Source of the DNA: Micrococcales bacterium
GTDB taxonomy: Bacteria; Actinomycetota; Actinomycetes; S36-B12; GCA-2699445
Direction: 5' to 3'
DNA length: 36,033 bases
Assembly (NCBI GenBank): GCA_002699445.1
Contig: PAAU01000063.1
Span: 1-36,033, forward strand
Part shown: piece by piece, positions 21,327 through 36,033 of the stretch
Numbering within the stretch: position 1 is the first letter of the stretch
How the letters are laid out: every line of letters begins with the position of its first letter
Translations under genes and position numbers: made by a program
Notes under the pieces: generated by a model
What the model was told of the DNA's origin: nothing
The model's input: only the letters and a program-made list of their open reading frames with translations
The model's database searches: none

Positions 21327-23075
21327 TTACTCGGTGACAATCAACCATGTTTCTGGCCAATCGGCCTCAAAAACTTGAATCGCTTTCCGTCGCGTTTCTT
21401 CATCCCAGCCCAGCTCGGCACTCAGAATGTCCGCAACCGCCTCCACCGCCCCTCGACCAGCATCGGGGGTTTCCAGCGCGACTCTAGTCCGCCGAACTAA
21501 TACGTCGGCAATCGAGCGGGCACCTTCATCACGAACTGCAACTACTGCTTCTGCAACGAGATAGGGAGCTCGTGGATGAAGCCGTTCGCCCAGAGATGCG
21601 TCATTGTCGATGAGATCAACAACACGTGGCGCTCGATCTCCATGTCGGCGCAACAGGTGCACGACCAAGCGCTCCGACATATCCCATTCACGAGCCAATC
21701 TGCTGCGGGACTGCCATAACTCGGCAAAATTGTCAGCACCTACCAGCGGGAGATTGTCTGTCTCCGAAATGGGGGGATCGCCGCCGACGTACGCTGACCG
21801 CTCGACGATGGCCGCGTCTACGGCGTCTTCCGCCATTACCCGGTAAGTGGTGTACTTGCCACCAGCGATCATGACCAGACCGGGCAACGGTCGCAGCACC
21901 ACGTGTTCCCGAGACATTTGGGTGGTCGTTTCATCATCATCTTCACTGACAACCTCTGTCGCGACCAGGGGACGCAGACCACAATAAACGCCGATAATGT
22001 CTGATCGATCTAGCGGCTCGGCTAGCCAACGATTGGTTTGATCCAACAGATATTCGATATCCGCAGGATCGGCGTGAGGATCGGCTAGATCTCCTTCATA
22101 ATCCGTGTCGGTAGTTCCTATCAGCCAACAGTCGTCACCCCAGGGGAGCAAGAACAGCACGCTAGTCGGCGTTCTGGCAATCACTGCGTTACCGGATCGA
22201 ATCCGATCGCGTGGCACGACAAGGTGGACGCCCTTGGCTTGCCGCACCTGGGCGCCCTCGGGTTCGATACCAGCAACGCCGCGAAATTCGTCGGTCCAGA
22301 CCCCCGTGGCGGACAGCACACATCGGGCGTAGACGTCGAGTTCGCGACCATCTACCGCTACCCGAGCACCGATGACTCGCTCCCGTTCCGCGTCTAAAGG
22401 CTCCCTGATCACCCCGACGGCTGCACAGCGAGTAACAACCGCGGCACCGGCACCTGCCGCTGAGCGTGCCAGTGCCAGCGTGTGTCGTGCGTCATCGATT
22501 TGAGCGTCGTAAAACCTCACTGCCGACTTAATCCGGTCGGCCGCAAGTCCTGGTGCGATACCTCGAACAGCTGCTCGGGATAACGTCTTAGGTCGAGGCA
22601 TTGTGCCGCCGTAGGCGCCCACTCGGGACAACATGTCGTAAAGAGTGACGCCCGCACCGATGTACGGCCGTTCCCAAGTAGGACCCGACAGCGGCAATAA
22701 GAATGCGAGTGGTTGTACGAGGTGGGGAGCTATCCGGTCCAGAAGTAAGCCGCGCTCGGTCAATGCCTCGTGTACCAGACCGAACTCACGATGTTCGAGG
22801 TATCGAAGTCCGCCGTGAGCCAACCTGCTCGATCGACTAGAAGTGCCCGCCGCCAAGTCAGTTTGCTCAACTAATCCAACAGCCAAGCCCCGGCTTGCTG
22901 CATCAAATGCTGATCCACAGCCAACGACTCCACCCCCAATCACCAAGACGTCTAGCGGATTCTCTGGTGTGGCCGCTTCCAGTCGCTTGATCGATTCAAC
23001 TCTGTAGCCAGGCGTGAGCGCATCAGAGTGACCTGATCCCGCTGCTTCACTCGTTAGCTCAACTTTGACATCCAC
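21327..23075 (-). CDS. glpD: FAD-dependent glycerol-3-phosphate dehydrogenase
   Basis: Oxidises glycerol 3-phosphate to dihydroxyacetone phosphate at the membrane, passing electrons to the quinone pool. The protein has 582 residues. The FAD motif LVIGGGVVGCGSAFDAA is near 44-60. The family block GTSSRSSRLAHGGLRYLE, the DARHTLALAR segment, WLIGTTDTDYEGD, GVYCGLRPLV and IAGGKYTTYRVMAEDAVD follow in order. The C-terminal helical domain (about 470-582) is complete. The GTG start at 23075 has a weak ribosome site and about 25 non-conserved residues precede the conserved region, so the start could be later. It is 121 bases upstream of the SSADH gene and 53 bases downstream of guaB3, same strand. 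Confidence 0.94.
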   Translation of the reverse strand: MDVKVELTSEAAGSGHSDALTPGYRVESIKRLEAATPENPLDVLVIGGGVVGCGSAFDAASRGLAVGLVEQTDLAAGTSSRSSRLAHGGLRYLEHREFGLVHEALTERGLLLDRIAPHLVQPLAFLLPLSGPTWERPYIGAGVTLYDMLSRVGAYGGTMPRPKTLSRAAVRGIAPGLAADRIKSAVRFYDAQIDDARHTLALARSAAGAGAAVVTRCAAVGVIREPLDAERERVIGARVAVDGRELDVYARCVLSATGVWTDEFRGVAGIEPEGAQVRQAKGVHLVVPRDRIRSGNAVIARTPTSVLFLLPWGDDCWLIGTTDTDYEGDLADPHADPADIEYLLDQTNRWLAEPLDRSDIIGVYCGLRPLVATEVVSEDDDETTTQMSREHVVLRPLPGLVMIAGGKYTTYRVMAEDAVDAAIVERSAYVGGDPPISETDNLPLVGADNFAELWQSRSRLAREWDMSERLVVHLLRRHGDRAPRVVDLIDNDASLGERLHPRAPYLVAEAVVAVRDEGARSIADVLVRRTRVALETPDAGRGAVEAVADILSAELGWDEETRRKAIQVFEADWPETWLIVTE

Positions 23076-23128
23076 AACGCCACGGTAGTGCAGATAATCG
23101 GCTCACGATGTGACCGCCCGCGCTAGAC

Positions 23129-25755
<2,627 letters not shown>

Positions 25756-25825
25756 TCAAACCTCGCTGTGGTCGGGCTTTCAGGGTAACGGCAGGCAACC
25801 AGCCTTGCCACGACCCGTTCCCGAG

Positions 25826-26425
25826 TTAGGGAATTAATCCGCGGCGCAGACCTTCAGCGACCGCGTGGCCCCGATCCGAAACTATCAATTTTCGAAATAG
25901 ACGACGGGCGTGAGTCTTCACGGTGTCTTCTGACAGGTACAACTCTTTACCGATCTGGGCATTGCTGAGGCCTTCGCTCATACCTCGCAGCACCTGCTGT
26001 TCCCTTTCCGTCAAACTCGGTCCAGCTTTTTGCCGTTGCTGCGGGATGTCTGCTCCCGAACGACCTCCGACGAGTGCGGCTAGAACCGCGGCAATCTCTT
26101 GCGGCGAAGCATCTTTCGCGAGGTATCCGCTTGCTCCCACCGTGACCGACTCCGCCACCGACTGTGGCGCCTCACCCGTTGTCAGCATCACTACTCGGGC
26201 GCGGGTATCCAGGTCGAGCAGTTTCCGCAAAGCTTCGAGTCCGCCCATTCCCGGCATTTGAACATCTAGGAGAACGACATCGGGCAACTCAACCGGATAT
26301 CGCGCCAGCATCTCCTCACCGCTAGCAGTGGTACTAACACCGGCGACCTCTGGGATGGAGGTGAGGGATCTCTTTATCGTTGCACGCACACCGGGAGAGT
26401 CATCGCAGACCATGATTGAGGCCAT
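25826..26425 (-). CDS. bldM: BldM-like response regulator (receiver + LuxR-type HTH)
   Basis: DNA-binding response regulator of 199 residues. The receiver domain (1-118) keeps the acidic pair Asp8/Asp9 (VCDDSP), the phosphoacceptor position Asp54 (LLDVQMPGMGG), Thr82 and Lys104 (YLAKDAS). The C-terminal LuxR-type HTH (about 135-199) reads LTEREQQVL, GLSNAQIGKELYLSEDTVKTHARRLFRKL, close to Streptomyces BldM. The position next to guaB also matches the Streptomyces bldM locus. In Streptomyces BldM controls aerial growth and sporulation genes and works without normal phosphorylation; here the target set is unknown. No sensor kinase is adjacent. GGGAGG lies just before the ATG at 26425. The 223-base region upstream contains nested inverted repeats that may be an operator. 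Confidence 0.87.
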   Translation of the reverse strand: MASIMVCDDSPGVRATIKRSLTSIPEVAGVSTTASGEEMLARYPVELPDVVLLDVQMPGMGGLEALRKLLDLDTRARVVMLTTGEAPQSVAESVTVGASGYLAKDASPQEIAAVLAALVGGRSGADIPQQRQKAGPSLTEREQQVLRGMSEGLSNAQIGKELYLSEDTVKTHARRLFRKLIVSDRGHAVAEGLRRGLIP

Positions 26426-26512
26426 GCCACCTCCCGGTGCTTCACAAACATCTTGCTCCGGCAGAGCCTCACGGTCCAGTTACGAGTCCTTTGACCCAAG
26501 TTGTCCTGTTGT

Positions 26513-26536
26513 GAAACGCGAGTTTCGAATGTTCGA
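26513..26536. promoter_or_regulatory. Nested inverted repeats in the bldM upstream region
   Basis: Two abutting small palindromes lie about 90-110 bases upstream of the bldM start. One is GAAAC-gcga-GTTTC (26513-26526), the other TCGAA-tg-TTCGA (26525-26536). They are the clearest dyad symmetry in the 223-base gap 26426-26648, which otherwise shows no gene. The second resembles half of a LexA-type box (TCGAAC-N4-GTTCGA) but has the wrong spacing. The bound factor, if any, is unknown, and chance is possible for repeats this short. Confidence 0.3.
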
Positions 26537-26648
26537 TACCCAAACCCTAGTGAACCTTGCTCCTCCTCGCTGGTTATTGGAAAGTTGATCAACCTCGCCC
26601 GGTGTCACCTACGTCCCTGGGAACCCGAGTATCCCCCACGTTCCTCGA

Positions 26649-27473
26649 CTAGTGACCAGCCACGTGGCGTCCCTCCCAGTGGGAACCCAGCCCGGGTGGG
26701 AGACGCTGAGAAATAAACGAAAGAGCATCAGTTGCTGCGGCCTGCTGAGCGGCTGTTGCACGATCTCCTAAGACTCTTACCGCCGGCCACAGGATGGGTC
26801 GCAGTTGCAACGTCTGCGCCAAGTCCACTGCCTCAAGAAGCTGATCATCCCCATCAGCGGTTTTCGACATATCTCGGGCGACACCCAGAAAAAGTAAGGA
26901 TTTAGCTAGGTGCCGCGGTGAACGAGCTGCTTCAGATTTGGCTTGGTTCGCGTGGTAGATAGCCGTGGCGGCATCCTCCGTCAAGAGTGCCACCTCGGAC
27001 CTCACCCAGTGGTAGCGCACCTGATCCCGCCAACCGTTAAGTAGCTGCGCTACTTTCGTCAAAGTCGCCGCCGCCTCACTTGCTTGTCCGCGGCCAACAC
27101 AATCCGCCGCTAGTCCAATGAGTCCGTCCACTTGAGCAGAGCCTGGACCGAGACACGCTAATTCGTCGTGGGCTACCGCCTGCTCATGTTCGCCTATCTG
27201 ACGTAATCCTGATGCGAGCGTGGCTGCCGCAAGTCCACGAACTTCTGATACCTCGGATGGCTTCGAGGTGACGAGGTTACGCTCAAGGAGTTGCAGCGCT
27301 GCTTGTGCCGCACGGTAATCCCCCAACGCCATCAGACATACCGAATATGCCCACGTCGACCAGGAGTCGTCGTTCTCCTTCAGTGTCAACAAACCATCGA
27401 GCGGGGCATTGGTGATAGCGCTCCACGCATCTTTTTGTGCGTTAGATCCCATACGAGAGTTCAGTGACCGCAT
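26649..27473 (-). CDS. Helical-repeat (TPR-like) protein of unknown function
   Basis: Not recognised as a named family. The protein has about 274 residues, is Ala/Leu-rich, soluble and almost entirely alpha-helical. Pairs of helices such as WSTWAYSVCLMALGDYRAA, RGLAAATLASGLRQIGEHEQA, IGLAADCVGRGQASEAAATL and RSEVALLTEDAATAIYHANQ follow the TPR pattern of small and large residues. This suggests a protein-interaction solenoid rather than an enzyme. The start is either ATG 27473 or ATG 27452; both overlap the 3' end of the merR gene, so the two are probably translated together. It sits between that regulator and bldM. A role as an interaction partner of the regulators is only a guess from position. 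Confidence 0.7.
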   Translation of the reverse strand: MRSLNSRMGSNAQKDAWSAITNAPLDGLLTLKENDDSWSTWAYSVCLMALGDYRAAQAALQLLERNLVTSKPSEVSEVRGLAAATLASGLRQIGEHEQAVAHDELACLGPGSAQVDGLIGLAADCVGRGQASEAAATLTKVAQLLNGWRDQVRYHWVRSEVALLTEDAATAIYHANQAKSEAARSPRHLAKSLLFLGVARDMSKTADGDDQLLEAVDLAQTLQLRPILWPAVRVLGDRATAAQQAAATDALSFISQRLPPGLGSHWEGRHVAGH

Positions 27474-28344
27474 CCTTCAAGGATGGCGGTCGAGCGGCTT
27501 CATGCTGAGTTTCGGACCAACCAGGGCCTAGCAATACAAACTCAGGGGCGGGTCGCATCGGTGGAAGGGCGCTTATGACATCAGCCTCAGCATGTTGCGG
27601 CAGTTGCGCCCACAAACCAATCTTGCGCGGTCGTACTCGTTTGACTGCATCGCTCATAGCGGCAGCAGGCACATTGTTCCCGAGGAGTACGGAAGGAGTT
27701 CCGTCGCTCAGGAGCGCAGACTGCAAGGCAAGCAGCGGCAAAACGTGCTCCTCATTGGGGGCACAGCCCAACAAAACCGGTCGGGAGCCACTTACGCTGT
27801 CTGGCATCGTACTCAGTAGTGCGCTGGTTACTCCGTGGGCGAGCACATGTTCGACATCAATGCCCTCTCCGGTTCGAGCCCAGCGATCTCCCACAGCAAC
27901 TAGTACTGGCGAAATAACCTCATTCCAGGTTTCCACCACACCGTGATCCTCTATCAGTCCCGAGAGAGTCGCTGTTATTGCGTTGCCATCTAGGGCCATC
28001 GCGGCCCGCGCGAGCCCCCGTTGATGTTCCGTGCCCACCGGAAGGGGAATGATTCGCCCACCGCCTGAGCGGCCGTGACTAGGAATCGGCTGTTCCCCAA
28101 CTTGGGGTAGGGCGCTGGCCGCGACTGCCTCCGCAGCGGGATAACCAGCCTGCAACAGGCGAGCAGCTACTCGTAGTCGCTCAATGTCGCTTTCGTTATA
28201 TCGTCGGTGGCCACCAGCGGTCCGAATGCTAGGACTTAAGTCGTAGCGACGATCCCAGGTTCGTAAAGTTGCTGCAGTTAAGCCAACTCGAGCCGCCGCC
28301 TCAGCCACGGACAGCGAGGCAGACGTCGTTGCAGCACTGTTCAT
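27442..28344 (-). CDS. MerR-family regulator with cobalamin-binding-type sensor domain
   Basis: Predicted transcription factor, 300 residues from the ATG at 28344, which has GGTGGAG upstream. A GTG at 28380 would add 12 residues. The N-terminal winged HTH (about 10-75) has SVAEAAARVGLTAATLRTWDRRY and RTAGGHRRYNESDIERL. The C-terminal part resembles the CarH/LitR B12 module. A helical bundle (about 105-180) ends in RWARTGEGIDVEH, giving the W-x9-EH motif (Trp155, Glu165, His166). A Rossmann-like half follows with CAPNEEHVLPLLAL, where His200 matches the cobalamin lower ligand, followed by LLGNNVP. The residue after Trp155 is Ala, where light-switching CarH has His. It is divergent from whiB and overlaps the helical-repeat gene. 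Ligand binding is inferred. Confidence 0.82.
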   Translation of the reverse strand: MNSAATTSASLSVAEAAARVGLTAATLRTWDRRYDLSPSIRTAGGHRRYNESDIERLRVAARLLQAGYPAAEAVAASALPQVGEQPIPSHGRSGGGRIIPLPVGTEHQRGLARAAMALDGNAITATLSGLIEDHGVVETWNEVISPVLVAVGDRWARTGEGIDVEHVLAHGVTSALLSTMPDSVSGSRPVLLGCAPNEEHVLPLLALQSALLSDGTPSVLLGNNVPAAAMSDAVKRVRPRKIGLWAQLPQHAEADVISALPPMRPAPEFVLLGPGWSETQHEAARPPSLKDAVTELSYGI

Positions 28345-28424
28345 ACCTTGAGTCTCCACCGATAGACGTGAATGCGCCACTGGACATTCCCTAGAGGCTC
28401 CGAAAAACGTATTGGCGTTTCATG

Positions 28425-28453
28425 TTGACGAACTTATGCAACAGTTCTACAGT
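28425..28453 (+). promoter_or_regulatory. Predicted housekeeping-sigma promoter of whiB
   Basis: TTGACG (28425-28430), a spacer of exactly 17 bases, then TACAGT (28448-28453). Transcription would begin near 28460, about 15 bases before the ATG at 28475, leaving a short leader with the AGAGGAGA ribosome site. Its position also argues against the longer whiB frame that opens at 28412, because that start would lie upstream of the transcript. Confidence 0.7.
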
Positions 28454-28474
28454 AGGAGCAACAGAGGAGAGATC

Positions 28475-28768
28475 ATGGCCAACCTAACTCGACTACCAGG
28501 ACCCAATGCCGATCTCTGGGATTGGCAACTCGAAGCCGCCTGCCGCGGAATTGACTCCGAGGTTTTCTTCCACCCGGAACGAGAGCGCGGTGAAGCGCGC
28601 GAGCGTCGTGAGCAAGCAGCCAAACAAATATGTGCTGCATGCCCAGTACGCCAAGAATGTCTCGAACATTCGCTAGCGGTCAAAGAGCCCTACGGCGTAT
28701 GGGGTGGCCTCGCCGAGCATGAGCGCGCTGCCCTACTGAAGCGCCAAAAGCTTTCTGCGGTCTGCTGA
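28475..28768 (+). CDS. whiD: WhiB-family iron-sulfur regulator, WhiD/WhiB3 type
   Basis: Wbl protein of 97 residues that should bind a [4Fe-4S] cluster and contact the primary sigma factor. The N-terminal run LPGPNADLWDWQLEAACRG is diagnostic of the WhiD/WhiB3 subgroup. The cluster cysteines are Cys23, Cys53, Cys56 and Cys62 (CX2C in ICAACPVRQEC). The GVWGG turn is at 74-78 and a basic tail HERAALLKRQK follows; an extra Cys ends the protein. I start at the ATG at 28475, which has the strong AGAGGAGA site. In Streptomyces WhiD is needed for spore maturation, and mycobacterial WhiB3 is a redox regulator. The neighbourhood (bldM, guaB, groEL) matches Streptomyces whiD. Redox or nitric-oxide sensing is expected from the family, not shown here. 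Confidence 0.92.
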   Translation: MANLTRLPGPNADLWDWQLEAACRGIDSEVFFHPERERGEARERREQAAKQICAACPVRQECLEHSLAVKEPYGVWGGLAEHERAALLKRQKLSAVC

Positions 28769-28784
28769 CGGACTCAAGTAAAGA

Positions 28785-28830
28785 ATGACAATGGGGTCGC
28801 CCAGTAGGAACTGGGCGACCCCATTGTCAT
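28785..28830. terminator. Bidirectional hairpin terminator between whiB and groEL
   Basis: Perfect inverted repeat with 20-base arms (28785-28804 and 28811-28830) and a 6-base loop TAGGAA. The stem core is GGGGTCGCCCAG paired with CTGGGCGACCCC. It lies in the 74-base gap between the convergent whiB and groEL stops. On the groEL (minus) strand the stem is followed by TTCTTTACTT, a usable U-rich tail. On the plus strand no T-run follows, so termination of whiB would rely on the stem alone. Confidence 0.88.
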
Positions 28831-28842
28831 GAGTTTCGCTAC

Positions 28843-30501
<1,659 letters not shown>

Positions 30502-30521
30502 TTACGGGAACTCAGACACGG

Positions 30522-30552
30522 CGACGCCCCGAGGACATGCCCCGGGGCGTCG
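30522..30552 (-). other. Stem-loop in the groES-groEL intercistronic region
   Basis: Perfect 10-base inverted repeat (CGACGCCCCG at 30522-30531 and its complement at 30543-30552) with an 11-base loop, extendable by a G-U pair. It sits 15 bases after the groES stop and about 40 bases before groEL. No T-run follows on the transcribed strand, so it is more likely an mRNA processing or stability element, or an attenuator, than a full terminator. Confidence 0.65.
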
Positions 30553-30567
30553 TGTGTCAGGAGTTGA

Positions 30568-30867
30568 TCATTTCTCTACGATCGCGAGCACGTCGCGAGC
30601 CGAGAGGATGAGGTACTCCTCGTTGTTGTACTTGACTTCAGTACCGCCATACTTGCTATAGATCACGGTGTCGCCGACGCTGATGTCAACGGGGATACGA
30701 TTTTCCCCATCATCATCGAAGCGACCGGGGCCGACAGCCACGACCTTGCCCTCTTGGGGCTTCTCCTTGGCGGTGTCCGGAATGACCAGACCAGACGCGG
30801 TAGTCTGCTCCGCGTCCAACGGTAGGACCACAATGCGGTCCTCTAGCGGCTTGATAGAGACTGACAC
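30568..30867 (-). CDS. groES: Co-chaperonin GroES
   Basis: 10-kDa co-chaperonin of 99 residues that caps the GroEL cage. The N-terminal [10 protein letters not shown], the mobile loop around [28 protein letters not shown] and the end [16 protein letters not shown] with [15 protein letters not shown] are all present. The start is GTG at 30867 with GGGAGG about 8 bases upstream. It is the first gene of the groES-groEL1 operon. Two CIRCE operators upstream indicate HrcA-mediated heat-shock repression. Confidence 0.97.
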
Positions 30868-30954
30868 GTCTCGACCTCCCCTTTCGGGAATGTAATTTCC
30901 AACAGATTGAAGCGCGTCCGCCGACCGTTATCGCGGTTACGGTCCCCGTCCGCA

Positions 30955-30981
30955 CTAGCACTCTCCTACGGACAGTGCCAG
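30955..30981. promoter_or_regulatory. CIRCE operator, groES-proximal copy (imperfect)
   Basis: CTAGCACTC, 9 bases, CAGTGCCAG. This matches the HrcA-binding CIRCE consensus TTAGCACTC-N9-GAGTGCTAA with four mismatches. It lies about 90 bases upstream of the groES start and downstream of the predicted promoter, so bound HrcA would block elongation or initiation. Confidence 0.8.
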
Positions 30982-30985
30982 GTCA

Positions 30986-31014
30986 ACCGTAGGCCTTGAT
31001 TAGCACTCCGTCAA
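30986..31014 (-). promoter_or_regulatory. Predicted groES-groEL promoter
   Basis: On the minus strand TTGACG (31014-31009), a 17-base spacer and TACGGT (30991-30986) form a plausible vegetative promoter. The -35 box lies in the spacer of the distal CIRCE element, so HrcA binding and RNA polymerase binding would be exclusive. The -10 match is modest. A second TTGACC at 30986-30981 lacks a good -10 partner. Confidence 0.5.
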
Positions 31015-31026
31015 GAAGAGTGCCAG
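31000..31026. promoter_or_regulatory. CIRCE operator, distal copy
   Basis: TTAGCACTC, the 9-base spacer CGTCAAGAA, then GAGTGCCAG. The left arm is a perfect CIRCE arm and the right arm differs at two positions. Two CIRCE copies before groES is the arrangement known in Streptomyces and related genera. The hrcA gene is not in this window. Confidence 0.92.
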
Positions 31027-31078
31027 CTGTTTTTCAGGTTCTTCTCCTCAGAGTCTCAGTCGGCGGCACCATGGGGGG

Positions 31079-32293
31079 ATGCTCGAACTCTCGCCTGCGG
31101 AGCTATTAGCCCCCGAAACTAAGGAAATTTGGGTAGCGGCAGATACTCTCGAGGAGCCGACACCAGCCGACATAATTCGCTTACGCCGCATAGCTCCCGA
31201 TCTGCCAACGGACCTAGTCTCGGCCGTCATAACTCAAGTTCAACTGCGGCGAAAAGCACGTTCATCGTTGGGAGATGTCGCCAATCGCATGCTGTTCACC
31301 GCAGCTGGACTGCAGCAGAGCACGCCACCGGCCACAGCGTCCCGCCGAGCGCGACGCCTGGTTGACCTGGGGATGACGTCTGTCCTAGATGTCGGCTGCG
31401 GTATCGGAGTCGATGCTATGGCCAGCCAGCGAGCAGGACTGACAGTTACAGCTATCGAGAAGGACCCGGTCACCGCCGCATTCGCGACGGTGAACCTGGA
31501 ACAGCAGGTCAGAAATGATGATGCTGTGGTGGGCACTCTGCCCCTGTGCGATGCCACTTTCTTCGACCCAGCCCGACGGAGCCAAAACCGACGCCTCATG
31601 TCCCCTGACGACTGGTCGCCGAGCTGGTCCTGGATCACCAAGTATGGCGAAGGTAGACCTAGAACCGTAGCTAAGGCCGCACCTGGTATTCCCCATGACC
31701 GAATTCCAGCAAGATGCGCGGCTGAGTGGGTAAGCCTCGATCATCGGCTGATCGAGACCTGCATTTGGTTCGAGGGTCTTGCCGCCGGTTTGCCTCGACG
31801 GAGCGCGGTCCTACTGCATCAGCAGTCTGACCCGTGGAAGGTAGGCGAAGAATCAGTTCTCGGCACTGACGATGAGTCACAGCCTGCTCCACTCGGCCCA
31901 GTCGCTGACTGGATCTTGGAACCCGACCCCGCCATCATCCGTTCGCACCTCATCGACACCCTGGCGGAAAGGATTGGCGCGGTGGGACTTAGTTCGGATA
32001 TCGCTTACCTCACGTCCAATCACCCCCCCGATCCGTCATGGGCGCAGCGCCTGAAAGTACTCGATGAAGTACCCGCCGGCGGCAAAGCACTTCGACTCGA
32101 ACTGCGGCGGCGAGAGATCGGCAAAGTCGAAATCCACACCAGGGGTCTCGGGATAGATCCCACTCGCTTGCGACGTTCCCTGAAATTGAGTGGATCCGGT
32201 CCTCTACATCATCTATTACTGACACGCGTTGCCGGTACTCCGACGGGCTTTCTGGTTCAACCTGACTCTCCAAAATCGAAAATAGGCAGCTGA
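31079..32293 (+). CDS. SAM-dependent methyltransferase with C-terminal THUMP-like domain
   Basis: Class I methyltransferase of about 404 residues; the substrate is unknown but nucleic acid is likely. The SAM-binding motif I is SVLDVGCGIGVDAMA (101-115) with acidic Glu127 in AIEKDP. The expected catalytic tetrapeptide region reads ATFFDPARRS (159-168), the FDPARR variant typical of this actinobacterial family, in place of NPPY. The C-terminal third (about 330-395, LKVLDEVPAGGKALRL through GPLHHLLLTRVAG) matches the THUMP-like domain. The start is uncertain: the ATG at 31079 directly follows a G6 run too close to act as an ideal ribosome site. It is divergent from groES across a 211-base region holding the CIRCE sites, and is followed closely by azlC. 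Confidence 0.83.
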   Translation: MLELSPAELLAPETKEIWVAADTLEEPTPADIIRLRRIAPDLPTDLVSAVITQVQLRRKARSSLGDVANRMLFTAAGLQQSTPPATASRRARRLVDLGMTSVLDVGCGIGVDAMASQRAGLTVTAIEKDPVTAAFATVNLEQQVRNDDAVVGTLPLCDATFFDPARRSQNRRLMSPDDWSPSWSWITKYGEGRPRTVAKAAPGIPHDRIPARCAAEWVSLDHRLIETCIWFEGLAAGLPRRSAVLLHQQSDPWKVGEESVLGTDDESQPAPLGPVADWILEPDPAIIRSHLIDTLAERIGAVGLSSDIAYLTSNHPPDPSWAQRLKVLDEVPAGGKALRLELRRREIGKVEIHTRGLGIDPTRLRRSLKLSGSGPLHHLLLTRVAGTPTGFLVQPDSPKSKIGS

Positions 32294-32296
32294 ATC

Positions 32297-32962
32297 GTGG
32301 CGTCGATCAATACCCAGGCGGTCACCATCGGGGTAGCCACTGGCGCTTATGGCATTTCCTTTGGCGCCTTGGCAGTTGGAGCGGGATTCAGTTGGTTCCA
32401 AGCAATGACCTTTTCGATTTTGATGTTTACCGGGGCCTCCCAGTTTGCTGCTATCGCCATAGTTGCCGCGGGTGGGGCACCCGTGGCCGCAGTGTTGACG
32501 TCTTGGTTGCTGGGAATTCGCAACGGGCTGTACGCAGTTTCGCTATCTCAGCGACTCAATCCAAAGGGTTGGCTCTTGCCGGTTACCGCCCAACTGACCA
32601 TCGATGAGTCCACCGCGACGGCGATATCACACGAGGAACCAGACAACTCTCGTCCCCTGCAGCAAGCGTTCTACCGCACTGGGATTGCGGTATTCCTCTT
32701 CTGGAATGTGGGTACCTTAGTCGGCGCTCTCGGCGTAAACGCTGTTGGTGATCCCAGCGATTGGGGACTGGACGCTGCCGCACCAGCGGCCCTGCTGGCC
32801 CTGCTATGGCCTCGCCTGTCCGATCGCACCGCACGCGTAACGGCCTTGTGGGCTGTCGCCGTAGCACTCGTCACAACACCACTGCTACCACCTGGAATGC
32901 CGGTTCTTGCGAGCGCGCTGGTTGCGCTCTTTATTGGGCTGAGGCGGCCATCATGTGGCTAG
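32297..32962 (+). CDS. azlC: AzlC-family branched-chain amino acid exporter, large subunit
   Basis: Polytopic membrane protein of 221 residues that pairs with AzlD; characterised members export branched-chain amino acids or analogues. The family N-terminal block is clear: GAYGISFGALAVGAGFSWFQAM, then MFTGASQFA and SWLLGIRNGLYAVSLSQRL, with QLTIDESTATAI a little later. Several hydrophobic helices follow, ending with GMPVLASALVALFIGL. The start is GTG at 32297, three bases after the methyltransferase stop, so transcription is probably shared. Its 3' end overlaps azlD by 10 bases. Confidence 0.9.
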   Translation: MASINTQAVTIGVATGAYGISFGALAVGAGFSWFQAMTFSILMFTGASQFAAIAIVAAGGAPVAAVLTSWLLGIRNGLYAVSLSQRLNPKGWLLPVTAQLTIDESTATAISHEEPDNSRPLQQAFYRTGIAVFLFWNVGTLVGALGVNAVGDPSDWGLDAAAPAALLALLWPRLSDRTARVTALWAVAVALVTTPLLPPGMPVLASALVALFIGLRRPSCG

Positions 32963-33255
32963 TTGTTGTAGTCGGATCGCTTGGTTGCTACCTGATCAAG
33001 TTACTCGGCTACGTCGTTCCTCAAGACTGGCTCGCGGGCGAGCGATGCAATCGTGTCAACACTTTACTTCCCATCGCGCTGCTGAGTTCACTCGTGGTGA
33101 TACTGACTCTGAGTGGCAGCAGCGGCCCGTTGCTCGACGCCCGACTCGCGGGGGTTGCGGTTGCCGCGGTGCTGTTAGTGCTGCGCGCACCATTCTTAGT
33201 CGTCGTAGTCGCAGCTGCGGCGACCGCGGCACTTCTTCGACTTGTCGTTGGCTGA
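32953..33255 (+). CDS. azlD: AzlD-family small membrane subunit
   Basis: Small membrane protein of 100 residues with about four hydrophobic segments. It begins MWLVVVVGSLGCYLIKLLGY and continues with TLLPIALLSSLVVILTL and VAAVLLVLRAPFLVVVVAAA. This topology, with the NTLLPIALL and LRAPFLVVV blocks, fits AzlD, the obligate partner of AzlC. I start at the ATG at 32953, with GAGG 8 bases upstream. The open frame extends further 5' through azlC, but that part is out-of-frame azlC sequence. It ends 4 bases before the convergent repeat-protein gene. Confidence 0.87.
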   Translation: MWLVVVVGSLGCYLIKLLGYVVPQDWLAGERCNRVNTLLPIALLSSLVVILTLSGSSGPLLDARLAGVAVAAVLLVLRAPFLVVVVAAAATAALLRLVVG

Positions 33256-33259
33256 GTAG

Positions 33260-36033
33260 TTATCCAGTACCGAACTGAGTGGGTATCCCGGCGGTAAAGG
33301 TCACTGTCGCTTTCGGCCCTGACCCCACCGTAGTTACTGCTCGCACTTGGACCGAGTAACTCTGATTGGGTCGTAACTTGGCGAACTTGCGCTGAGACCT
33401 CCCATTGGCCTTCGGAACCCAGTCTTGAGACTTCCACCGCGAATACCCTTTGCTGCGGCTATCCCCACTCTTCTTGATCCGCGTCTGGTAGGACACCAGC
33501 GGCCCACTACCGAGCTTCTTGGGCCGCTTCCACGTCACAACCGCCGACGTCGGGCTCCGCTTCTGCGCCGGAGCATTCAATTTCCGCACCTTGCCCGGCA
33601 GCGCTTGATCCGAAGCTCCCGCGTTTGCATTCGCTTTCACCCTTAGTGCCACACCAGCCAACGCCACCGAGTCGGGACTACCGATCGCGTTGGACTTTAG
33701 CTTGAGCATGCCGGCCGATGATCCGGTGTTTTGCGGCGCGTATCGGACTTTGACGCGACAGGCGTTACCTGGCTTAATGGACTTCTCCAAGCAGTCGGTC
33801 GCCTTGATGAGCACGAACTCGTCGTCATCATCAGACACTCTCACTTTTTGCATGCGCAGCGGACCATCACCCACGTTGTTGATTACAGCCTGACTGGTGG
33901 CGCTTTCGCCCACATCTACTGAACCGAAGTCAACGAGGTCGGCCTCAACGATTGCTTGAATGCCCTCACCTGTGATCGGGATCCAGTCCGGACTGGACGC
34001 GCCGTCTGAGGTCACTTGAACCTGAACTGATCTGGGCCCTACGTTGTCTGGCGAGAATCGGATGGGGACTTTACAGGATTTCTTGGGCAGGAGTGTCTTG
34101 ATTTTGCAGCCCTTACCTTCGCTGACGAATTCCTCAGTATTTCCGAATACCCGAGTTTGACGAACTCGAATAGGGGCGTTACCCGAATTGCGCACCAGAA
34201 GGGTTTTCTTGACTGAGTCGCCGACTGGCACCCGACCAAAGTCTGCAATCGTCGCCGACAGTTGACCGATCAACCCGATTCCCTGCACCGAGAACTGATC
34301 AACGCTGGTCCAACTATTACTCGTGACACGAATAGCTGCAGCACGCGGACCACCGGAACGCGGGGCGAACTCGAGTGTGGCTCGGCAGGATTCTCCGGAC
34401 GGAATCTTGCCATCACGACAATTTCCCTGCTTGATGGAAAACTCGTTGCCTGAGACCCGCAACTTTTTGATCCGTAGCGGAGCGGCGCCCACGTTACGGA
34501 CCTTTATCTTTTGCTCGGCACGACTACCAACTGCGGTGGCATCGAATCTCTTCACCTTGGTAGCCAGCACCGCAGTTGCGGCCCTGCCGCCGACGGGCAG
34601 AAATGAGTCTCGGCCGACCTTTCGTTCGACGCGCAGTTCAGCCGCTCGAATTCCCAAGTCACTTGGATCAAACTGCATCCTCACATCGCAGACGTCCCCT
34701 GGCTTGAGTTGCTTCCGGCAGTCGGAGTCATTGACGACACGAAAATCTCCTGATTCCGTTACTTTGACTCGCTCGATTTTGAGTGCGCCATCACCCTCAT
34801 TCTCGATGGTCGCAGTGCCTCGCTTGCTACCGCCGATCTCGGTTGGATTCTTGAAGGGCACCGACTTAACTGTCAATGGTGCTCGCGGTGTTATGGCTCC
34901 GACTGGAATTTGAGAAGCGGAAGACCGCACACCCAAGTTTGCATTGGACTCGACTTCAACGACGGCGGCGTACGAACCGTCCACCCTTTCCGAATCGAAG
35001 ACAACAGTCACCGAACAGGTCTTCCCAGGCCTCACTGAGACGTCCATGCATCCTGAGGGGTCGGGGATACTGAAGTTTGGCGATGCCGCGCGGTTGGCAT
35101 CGAAGACCTTGAACTTGGTGACTCGCAGGTCTGCGGTACCCACGTTTTTCAGCGTTAGTTGCTCATCAGAATCGTATTTATCAATGATGGTGGCATCGAG
35201 AGCTCCGTCAATAACTGCGTAGGTTCCAGTACCCGATAGGCCGACTTCGAGCGTCGCATTGGACGCATCTGACTCGACCGTTAGCGTTCCGGATGCGGGC
35301 CCAGCATTCGAGGGAAGCGCTTTCGGAGCGAATTTCAGCTGAACATCGCAAGATTCACCAGGTCCTAAAAGCTTGCCACTACAAGGATCCGCAACCACCG
35401 AGAAACCGGCGCTCTTGTCATTCTCAGAGAGAACAACCTGACTTATCTTGGCAGATCCGGCAAACTGACCATCTGCGGAATTTCGAACCGTGAGCACCTT
35501 GGTCTCACCGTTGGTGCCCACCTCGACTTCACCGAAGTCAACCTTCGAAGCGGCCAACTTTCCGACGGCACCGGAGCCCGCCAGTGAGACCTCCATCTTC
35601 TCATTGACTGCATCCGAATCCACTAGCAGCACCGCGGCTTTCTCTCCGATCGATGCTGGTTCGAACTTAACTTCGATATCGCAGGCGCCACCCTTGGCGA
35701 GCGTTTTACCCGTGCATTTGTCATCCACGATGAGGAAGCGCCCGGCTTGTTTCTCTTCGATAGCGGTACCAGTCACCTTCACTGGAGCTGAAGTAGACGA
35801 GTCAACGTTCTTCAACGTGACGACAGCACGCTTCGGTCGCGCCAAATCCACGAGACCGAAATCCAGAGCCTCGGCAAACAGTTCCCCCTGCACACCATTG
35901 CCTTGGACAGCAAGTTCGGTTGAGACGAAGCCCGGCTCTGAAACGTCCCAGCTAGCTGCAAGTGGCCCTAACCGAGCCGGCGTTAAGGTCCAATCTCCCC
36001 GACATTCATCGGTAAAACTGATTTTTCCGTCTT
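33260..36033 (-). CDS. Large repeat protein: ASH/choice-of-anchor-D domains plus terminal Fn3, N-terminus missing
   Basis: The frame is open to the right window edge (at least 923 residues), so the true start and any signal peptide lie outside. Numbered from the GTG at 35893 (877 residues), seven complete beta-sandwich repeats of about 100 residues fill 8-750, and part of another lies upstream. A typical unit reads VDFGxVxVG, then VxNxGxxPLRI, a Cys pair around LxPGxSC, FxPxxxGxRxA and ends in LxGxG. This is the ASPM-SPD2-Hydin-like or choice-of-anchor-D pattern. A fibronectin type III domain follows (about 766-870, SAVVTWKRP and YSVQVRAVTTVGSGP). There is no LPxTG or C-terminal membrane anchor. 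A secreted or surface structural/adhesive role is likely; the ligand is unknown. Confidence 0.8.
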   Translation of the reverse strand, partial: DGKISFTDECRGDWTLTPARLGPLAASWDVSEPGFVSTELAVQGNGVQGELFAEALDFGLVDLARPKRAVVTLKNVDSSTSAPVKVTGTAIEEKQAGRFLIVDDKCTGKTLAKGGACDIEVKFEPASIGEKAAVLLVDSDAVNEKMEVSLAGSGAVGKLAASKVDFGEVEVGTNGETKVLTVRNSADGQFAGSAKISQVVLSENDKSAGFSVVADPCSGKLLGPGESCDVQLKFAPKALPSNAGPASGTLTVESDASNATLEVGLSGTGTYAVIDGALDATIIDKYDSDEQLTLKNVGTADLRVTKFKVFDANRAASPNFSIPDPSGCMDVSVRPGKTCSVTVVFDSERVDGSYAAVVEVESNANLGVRSSASQIPVGAITPRAPLTVKSVPFKNPTEIGGSKRGTATIENEGDGALKIERVKVTESGDFRVVNDSDCRKQLKPGDVCDVRMQFDPSDLGIRAAELRVERKVGRDSFLPVGGRAATAVLATKVKRFDATAVGSRAEQKIKVRNVGAAPLRIKKLRVSGNEFSIKQGNCRDGKIPSGESCRATLEFAPRSGGPRAAAIRVTSNSWTSVDQFSVQGIGLIGQLSATIADFGRVPVGDSVKKTLLVRNSGNAPIRVRQTRVFGNTEEFVSEGKGCKIKTLLPKKSCKVPIRFSPDNVGPRSVQVQVTSDGASSPDWIPITGEGIQAIVEADLVDFGSVDVGESATSQAVINNVGDGPLRMQKVRVSDDDDEFVLIKATDCLEKSIKPGNACRVKVRYAPQNTGSSAGMLKLKSNAIGSPDSVALAGVALRVKANANAGASDQALPGKVRKLNAPAQKRSPTSAVVTWKRPKKLGSGPLVSYQTRIKKSGDSRSKGYSRWKSQDWVPKANGRSQRKFAKLRPNQSYSVQVRAVTTVGSGPKATVTFTAGIPTQFGTG
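33644..36033 (-). repeat. Array of protein-level tandem repeats (ASH-like domains, each with a Cys pair)
   Basis: In the numbering from 35893, complete repeats span roughly residues 8-108, 114-223, 229-332, 338-437, 441-539, 544-643 and 648-750. Their cysteines are 60/71, 171/182, 282/293, 392/402, 492/503, 596/607 and 701/712, always 10-11 residues apart. A further unit at 35894-36033 shows its second Cys only. The repeats are diverged in DNA sequence, so the array is ancient rather than a recent expansion. Confidence 0.8.

Follow-up and report, generated by a model that had tools for sequence, protein, structure and literature searches.

To our knowledge, control of WhiD orthologues is poorly known, and the locus described here raises the question of whether one of them is governed by a vitamin B12-dependent regulator encoded next to it. 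WhiD orthologues (WhiB3 in mycobacteria) are iron-sulfur regulators of development and the redox response (PMC4255298). In the window, i.e., the whole stretch of 36,033 nucleotides that was analyzed, a whiB gene is divergent from a gene for a MerR-family protein (Table 1) that the first-pass annotation had likened to CarH. On balance, we judge it rather probable that this protein is a cobalamin-binding CarH-like MerR regulator with repeat operators at whiD and at an open reading frame (ORF) of 67 aa. It is probably a repressor, the position of the predicted sites being the sole ground for preferring repression to activation. The first-pass annotation included neither the conserved site predicted within the whiD promoter nor the second putative target.

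Table 1. Coordinates of the genes, domains, codons and predicted regulatory sites (positions in the window unless a contig is named)
Feature	Position	Strand	Evidence
CarH-like MerR regulator, 300 aa, open frame (merR/P0001)	27442..28344	-	ORF, Pfam, AlphaFold, Foldseek
MerR helix-turn-helix DNA-binding domain, residues 12-73	28126..28311	-	Pfam MerR_1, 1.8e-16, over curated cut-off
B12-binding_2 four-helix bundle with Trp155, Glu165, His166	27820..28020	-	Pfam, 4.2e-7, over curated cut-off
Trp155 codon	27880..27882	-	
Glu165 codon	27850..27852	-	
His166 codon	27847..27849	-	
Rossmann-type B12-binding domain, residues 190-276, with GxxxP (222-226) and GPGW (273-276)	27517..27777	-	Pfam, 0.052, under cut-off here; alignment to CarH/CtMerR
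Codon of His200, predicted lower ligand	27745..27747	-	
whiB gene, WhiD type, divergent from merR	28475..28768	+	Pfam Whib, 3.1e-26
TPR-like protein gene, directly 3' of merR	26649..27453	-	Sequence; weak TPR match; gene order kept in relatives
NarL/BldM-type response regulator	25826..26425	-	Profile matches; syntenic in relatives
Predicted operator formed by TGACGAACTTA and TGCAACAGTTC, direct repeats of 11 bp each	28426..28447	+	Aligned intergenic regions, matrix score
Predicted whiD core promoter: -35 TTGACG (28425-28430), -10 TACAGT (28448-28453)	28425..28453	+	Layout kept in 63 loci
67-aa ORF, MNLMYKVKHYTNKVLYTFFGPAELDEHNDP...	G000 contig C6:77886-78136 (L204, L206, L209)		Without Pfam match; near-copy of whiD operator in promoter

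Domain architecture and solved relatives

The first-pass reading of a CarH-like, B12-type regulator is supported by domain content, aligned residues, and closest relatives. The domains follow the order of CarH and other class I LitR proteins (MerR, then B12-binding_2, then B12-binding), with the Rossmann part falling below the profile threshold in the window protein. These profile searches had been proposed as a check. In homologues from the same order, B12-binding_2 was matched in 32 of 32 and B12-binding at an E value of ≤0.01 in 29 of the 32. W30, R33, and Y34 of the MerR domain are invariant in the 143 Actinomycetes homologues that form the conservation set.

The solved proteins closest in sequence are CarH of Thermus thermophilus (TtCarH; 1.1e-15) and CtMerR of Chloracidobacterium thermophilum (8jbs; 6.1e-12), with profile matches of 1e-32 and 1.2e-18, respectively. 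An AlphaFold model built from 32 sequences (mean pLDDT, 87.5) had full-length CarH, CtMerR, and the isolated CarH cobalamin domain as its best PDB matches in Foldseek, with TMt values of 0.68 to 0.82 against isolated cobalamin-binding domains. The protein shares with CarH the MerR domain, the Wx9EH helical bundle, and the Rossmann domain with a lower-ligand His, and the operator predicted in the window resembles that of CarH in its 11-bp tandem layout, which takes in the -35 element. Unlike CarH, to which it is only 24% identical by structure match, it lacks the adduct His, has ExHxxP in place of the GxxH-type loop, and is encoded at a groEL-whiD-guaB locus that does not adjoin carotenoid genes; its score against the NCBIfam CarH equivalog was 80.9 bits, compared to a cut-off of 400. 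CtMerR (8jbs/8jbt) has the same architecture and the Pro of GxxxP; it is a light-responsive adenosylcobalamin (AdoCbl) protein in which Arg takes the place of the adduct His, as Ala does in the window protein. It differs in retaining the GxxH glycine, which is Asn197 in the window protein, and its target gene is not known to be related.

Conservation of the predicted cobalamin pocket

All four residues on which the first-pass annotation rested are where it placed them: Trp155 is followed after nine residues by Glu165 and His166, and His200 lies 34 residues past His166, the corresponding distance in TtCarH being 35. HMMER aligns them with W131, E141, H142, and H177 of TtCarH, and the prediction that Trp155, His166, and His200 share a pocket rests on this alignment to CarH rather than on distances. 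Conservation among the 143 homologues is high for Glu165 (141), His166 (139), His200 (139), Pro226 (140), and Gly222 (138) and lower for Trp155 (120). CarH-like regulators in which this predicted vitamin B12 pocket is conserved occur in many actinobacteria, among them the Nanopelagicales-type bacterium of the window.

The EH pair and His200, which lie in two different domains, are also lost together. Both are present in 138 of the 143 proteins, EH without His200 in none, His200 without EH in one, and neither in four (Fisher P value of 3e-7, ignoring descent). The four proteins without His200 (two from Cellulomonas, L106, and L144) all lack EH, which is missing from just one other protein. On the tree, this joint loss amounts to three or four changes, too few independent pairs for significance in a tree-corrected test. 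Near-invariance and joint loss nevertheless argue against the degenerate, cofactor-free sensor that the first-pass annotation had entertained for the window protein. Trp155 is replaced by Phe, Gln, or His in 21 homologues that retain EH and His200, and the upper ligand may therefore differ by lineage, AdoCbl perhaps not being the ligand throughout. In L078 to L080 and L104, from several actinomycete lineages, Gln or His occupies the Trp155 position with EH and His200 intact, a possible change of upper ligand.

Locus and distribution

The regulators reported beside merR were correctly typed. The divergent whiB is closest to the Streptomyces-type gene adjoining bldM, i.e., whiD (65 to 67% identical), and a NarL/BldM-type regulator lies downstream of merR. 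The TPR-like gene probably shares an operon with merR, as its likely ATG (27453) overlaps the 3' end of merR, and it is syntenic with merR across many relatives. Most merR copies in the order share the arrangement groES-groEL-[whiB divergent]-merR-(TPR)-(bldM type)-guaB, whereas in Streptomyces-like genomes the homologue sits away from the groEL-whiD-guaB locus. None of the conserved neighbors (groES-groEL, whiD, TPR, bldM type, and guaB) is a carotenoid gene, and the association with carotenoid genes, or with other genes induced by light, that marks CarH and class I LitR proteins was not found among them.

A merR match was present in 53 of 60 relatives searched, some of these being weak and confined to the DNA-binding domain, and in 209 of 395 genomes of the class at 1e-15; the relatives include metagenome-assembled, incomplete genomes. 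No cobalamin riboswitch reached the gathering score within positions 22000 to 36033, and three subthreshold matches lie elsewhere in the genome. A cobalamin adenosyltransferase gene was found in the genome of the window. Its co-occurrence with merR was considered as a sign of AdoCbl use and rejected: the gene is present in 62 of 63 merR genomes and in 15 of 16 without a strong merR match and, being near universal, lends no specific support to cobalamin use by the MerR protein.

A predicted operator in the whiD promoter

CarH operators consist of tandem 11-bp repeats (nnnnTnnACAn), one of which includes the -35 element (PMC9304148). Alignment of the merR-whiB intergenic regions revealed a similar layout, with paired 11-bp repeats (in another example, TGACCAACTTA and TGAAGCGGTTC) at the interval between the -35 and -10 elements. 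In the window this spacer is 17 bp long and is filled by the head-to-tail repeats. Every one of the 63 promoters has TG at the start of its second repeat unit. Self-identity of the promoters peaks at a lag of 11 (0.44, the highest of lags 6 to 16). The CarH core TnnACA is inexact in the window units (TGACGA and TGCAAC); some homologues have it in exact form, as does the first unit of the second site described below. Exact pairs spaced at 11 bp occurred in five whiD promoters (0.3 expected) and in none of the upstream regions of displaced merR homologues. As such pairs are too few to carry the argument, a 22-bp matrix trained on the whiD promoters was used, with leave-one-out scoring and a threshold of 11.0 (the 99.9th percentile of shuffles).

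The threshold was exceeded by 61 of 63 merR-adjacent whiD promoters, the exceptions being L066 and L097, and by none of 14 WhiD-type promoters without an adjacent merR, all of which lacked repeats and scored ≤1.6 (Mann-Whitney P value of 4e-9), although the homologues are related and these counts overstate independence. The 14 controls include six Streptomyces-type whiD genes adjoining bldM and G010, a genome of the same order in which whiD, groEL, and the TPR gene are present and merR and the repeats are absent. The exact operator pattern was found only at the whiD promoter in the genome of the window and only at the whiB-merR promoter in 40 other genomes. The CarH-like regulator appears, from sequence comparison, to act on a repeated site inside the neighboring whiD promoter, which would make B12, and perhaps light, an input to a stress/redox regulator.

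A second predicted target

The sole further good site in the genome of the window is a near-match, TTGCACAAGTTTTGCAACAGTTCTA, on another contig directly before the 67-aa ORF. Orthologues of this ORF in G025 and G041 are divergent from merR itself and keep the repeats. Repeats can be seen upstream of the ORF at site scores of 18.9 in G000, 10.1 in G001, 12.9 in G004, 11.9 in G007, 12.2 in G025, and 3.6 (weak) in G041; in the fragmented assembly of G007, merR was not found. Upstream of the ORF in G009 (-1.6) and G014 (-2.7), both without a strong merR match, there are no repeats. No WhiD-type whiB was found in G025 and G041 (83% and 70% complete, respectively), which have merR and the repeats, and the site therefore tracks merR rather than whiD.

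Proposed mechanism and the question of light

From these comparisons we infer the ligand, DNA binding, the sign of regulation, and the trigger, including any response to light. His200 would ligate cobalt from below, and the helical bundle (Trp155, Glu165, and His166) would cap the upper face, probably of AdoCbl. The loaded protein would assemble and set its DNA-binding domains head to tail on the repeats, and RNA polymerase would thereby be blocked at whiD and, in the lineage of the window, also at the 67-aa ORF. Repression would be lifted when B12 is scarce or when the cofactor or its adenosyl group is lost.

The position of the TtCarH adduct His (H132) is occupied by Ala156 in the window protein and by His in none of the 143 homologues, and the bis-His light state of TtCarH is consequently not expected. 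The first-pass annotation had anticipated switching chemistry different from that of TtCarH on this ground, and the TtCarH H132A variant remains mostly tetrameric after light (PMC10442372). Release would proceed without the bis-His state, which favors a sensor of B12 level. The annotation went too far, however, in treating the missing His, and Pro203 in place of the ExHxxG glycine, as signs against light sensing. The adduct His is not universal among light-responsive B12 proteins: CtMerR, SasPcob, and AbDPcob, which have Arg, Gln, and Tyr at this position, respectively, all respond to light (PMC11796333). Pro203, for its part, is what most of the family has (95 of 143 homologues). A CtMerR-like, Glu-based light response is possible.

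The protein could accordingly be a true photoreceptor whose AdoCbl form represses whiD in the dark until green light breaks the Co-C bond, with CtMerR-like release; we regard this as possible but lean against it. The light-responsive cobalamin-domain signature of SignatureFinder comprises GxxW, EH, GxxH, and GxxxP (PMC11796333). The window protein has three of these elements (GxxW at 152-155, EH at 165-166, and GxxxP at 222-226), and all four occur in 17 of 143 homologues. Its order also includes planktonic freshwater lineages; L033, whose merR homologue is a close one, belongs by its annotation to Candidatus Nanopelagicales. Against a photoreceptor are Asn197, which turns GxxH into NxxH, the behavior of TtCarH H132A, and the absence of carotenoid genes from the conserved neighbors.

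Decayed and DNA-binding-only forms

In the Cellulomonas orthologues L036 and L039, the locus is kept and all four cobalamin residues are gone. In Aeromicrobium (L037:5794-6219), a MerR protein of ∼90 aa (counted from the likely ATG) consists of the DNA-binding domain only and is divergent from a whiB whose promoter has three tandem 11-bp repeats. These forms suggest that the core function lies in DNA binding and that the sensing of a cofactor can be lost. The Aeromicrobium copy, as a lone DNA-binding domain, resembles BldC-type proteins, which are MerR-like and bind direct repeats; BldC has no effector domain, in contrast to the window protein.

Such forms lend some weight to a regulator that is cofactor free or has another ligand, in which the pocket would be structural and DNA binding constitutive or tuned by a partner, as in CarA and class II LitR. 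The subthreshold Rossmann domain of the window protein and the Trp155 replacements point the same way. We nevertheless consider this reading unlikely, as EH and His200 are nearly invariant and are lost jointly and as G222 and P226, which belong to the signature of light-responsive AdoCbl domains, are also retained. Less likely still is that the repeats serve WhiD itself, the BldM-type regulator, a sigma factor, or some other protein and that merR merely travels with the locus: they do coincide exactly with a core promoter of the sigma-70 type, and such a promoter by itself conserves TTGAC and the -10 element, but they are missing from Streptomyces-type whiD beside bldM and from G010, are present with merR in G025 and G041, where no WhiD-type gene was found, and precede the unrelated 67-aa ORF.

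The reading of a cobalamin-responsive repressor may extend to the whole class. We propose, tentatively and with less confidence than for the window protein, a class-wide cobalamin (possibly light) input into the WhiD/WhiB3-type regulator, in which an ancient CarH-like repressor without the adduct His acts on an 11-bp-repeat operator of the whiD promoter in many Actinomycetes. Several times over, this repressor would have lost its cofactor or been reduced to the DNA-binding domain, with the operator kept. Class V LitR of Micrococcales is said to be without a B12-binding domain (PMC9758184), and the window protein differs from it in retaining the pocket residues. The Cellulomonas orthologues, encoded at the shared locus, no longer have any of the four residues, so class V LitR may represent decayed members of this family.

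Implications

If the proposed mechanism is correct, a B12-dependent, and perhaps light-dependent, switch at whiD would make redox regulation depend on a vitamin that is scarce and photolabile, both in the abundant actinobacteria of fresh water and in many others, and CarH-like proteins would extend beyond carotenoid control. The family would also offer a natural H132A-like series for B12 photochemistry, with an exact predicted site at 28426-28447. A literature search of open-licence papers found no B12-type MerR protein linked with whiB or whiD.

Other operator-like sites and minor observations

Additional operator-like sites provide leads only. One is shared by two genomes of one genus (L243, ∼1479-1503, and G056:C28:64940); in G030 it precedes a gene for a fasciclin-type lipoprotein (named by eye), and the site in G056 is similar. 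In G001 the operator matches at a cytochrome oxidase subunit III-like gene. Four Streptomyces-type homologues located away from whiD (L082, L083, L085, and L087) have, by eye, copies of a TGCRTCG... unit spaced by 11 bp directly before their own starts, possibly reflecting autoregulation. Elsewhere in the window, the minus strand at 33260-35893 encodes a protein of 877 aa in which repeated Ig-like domains of the ASH/HYDIN type are combined with a fibronectin type III domain at the C terminus.
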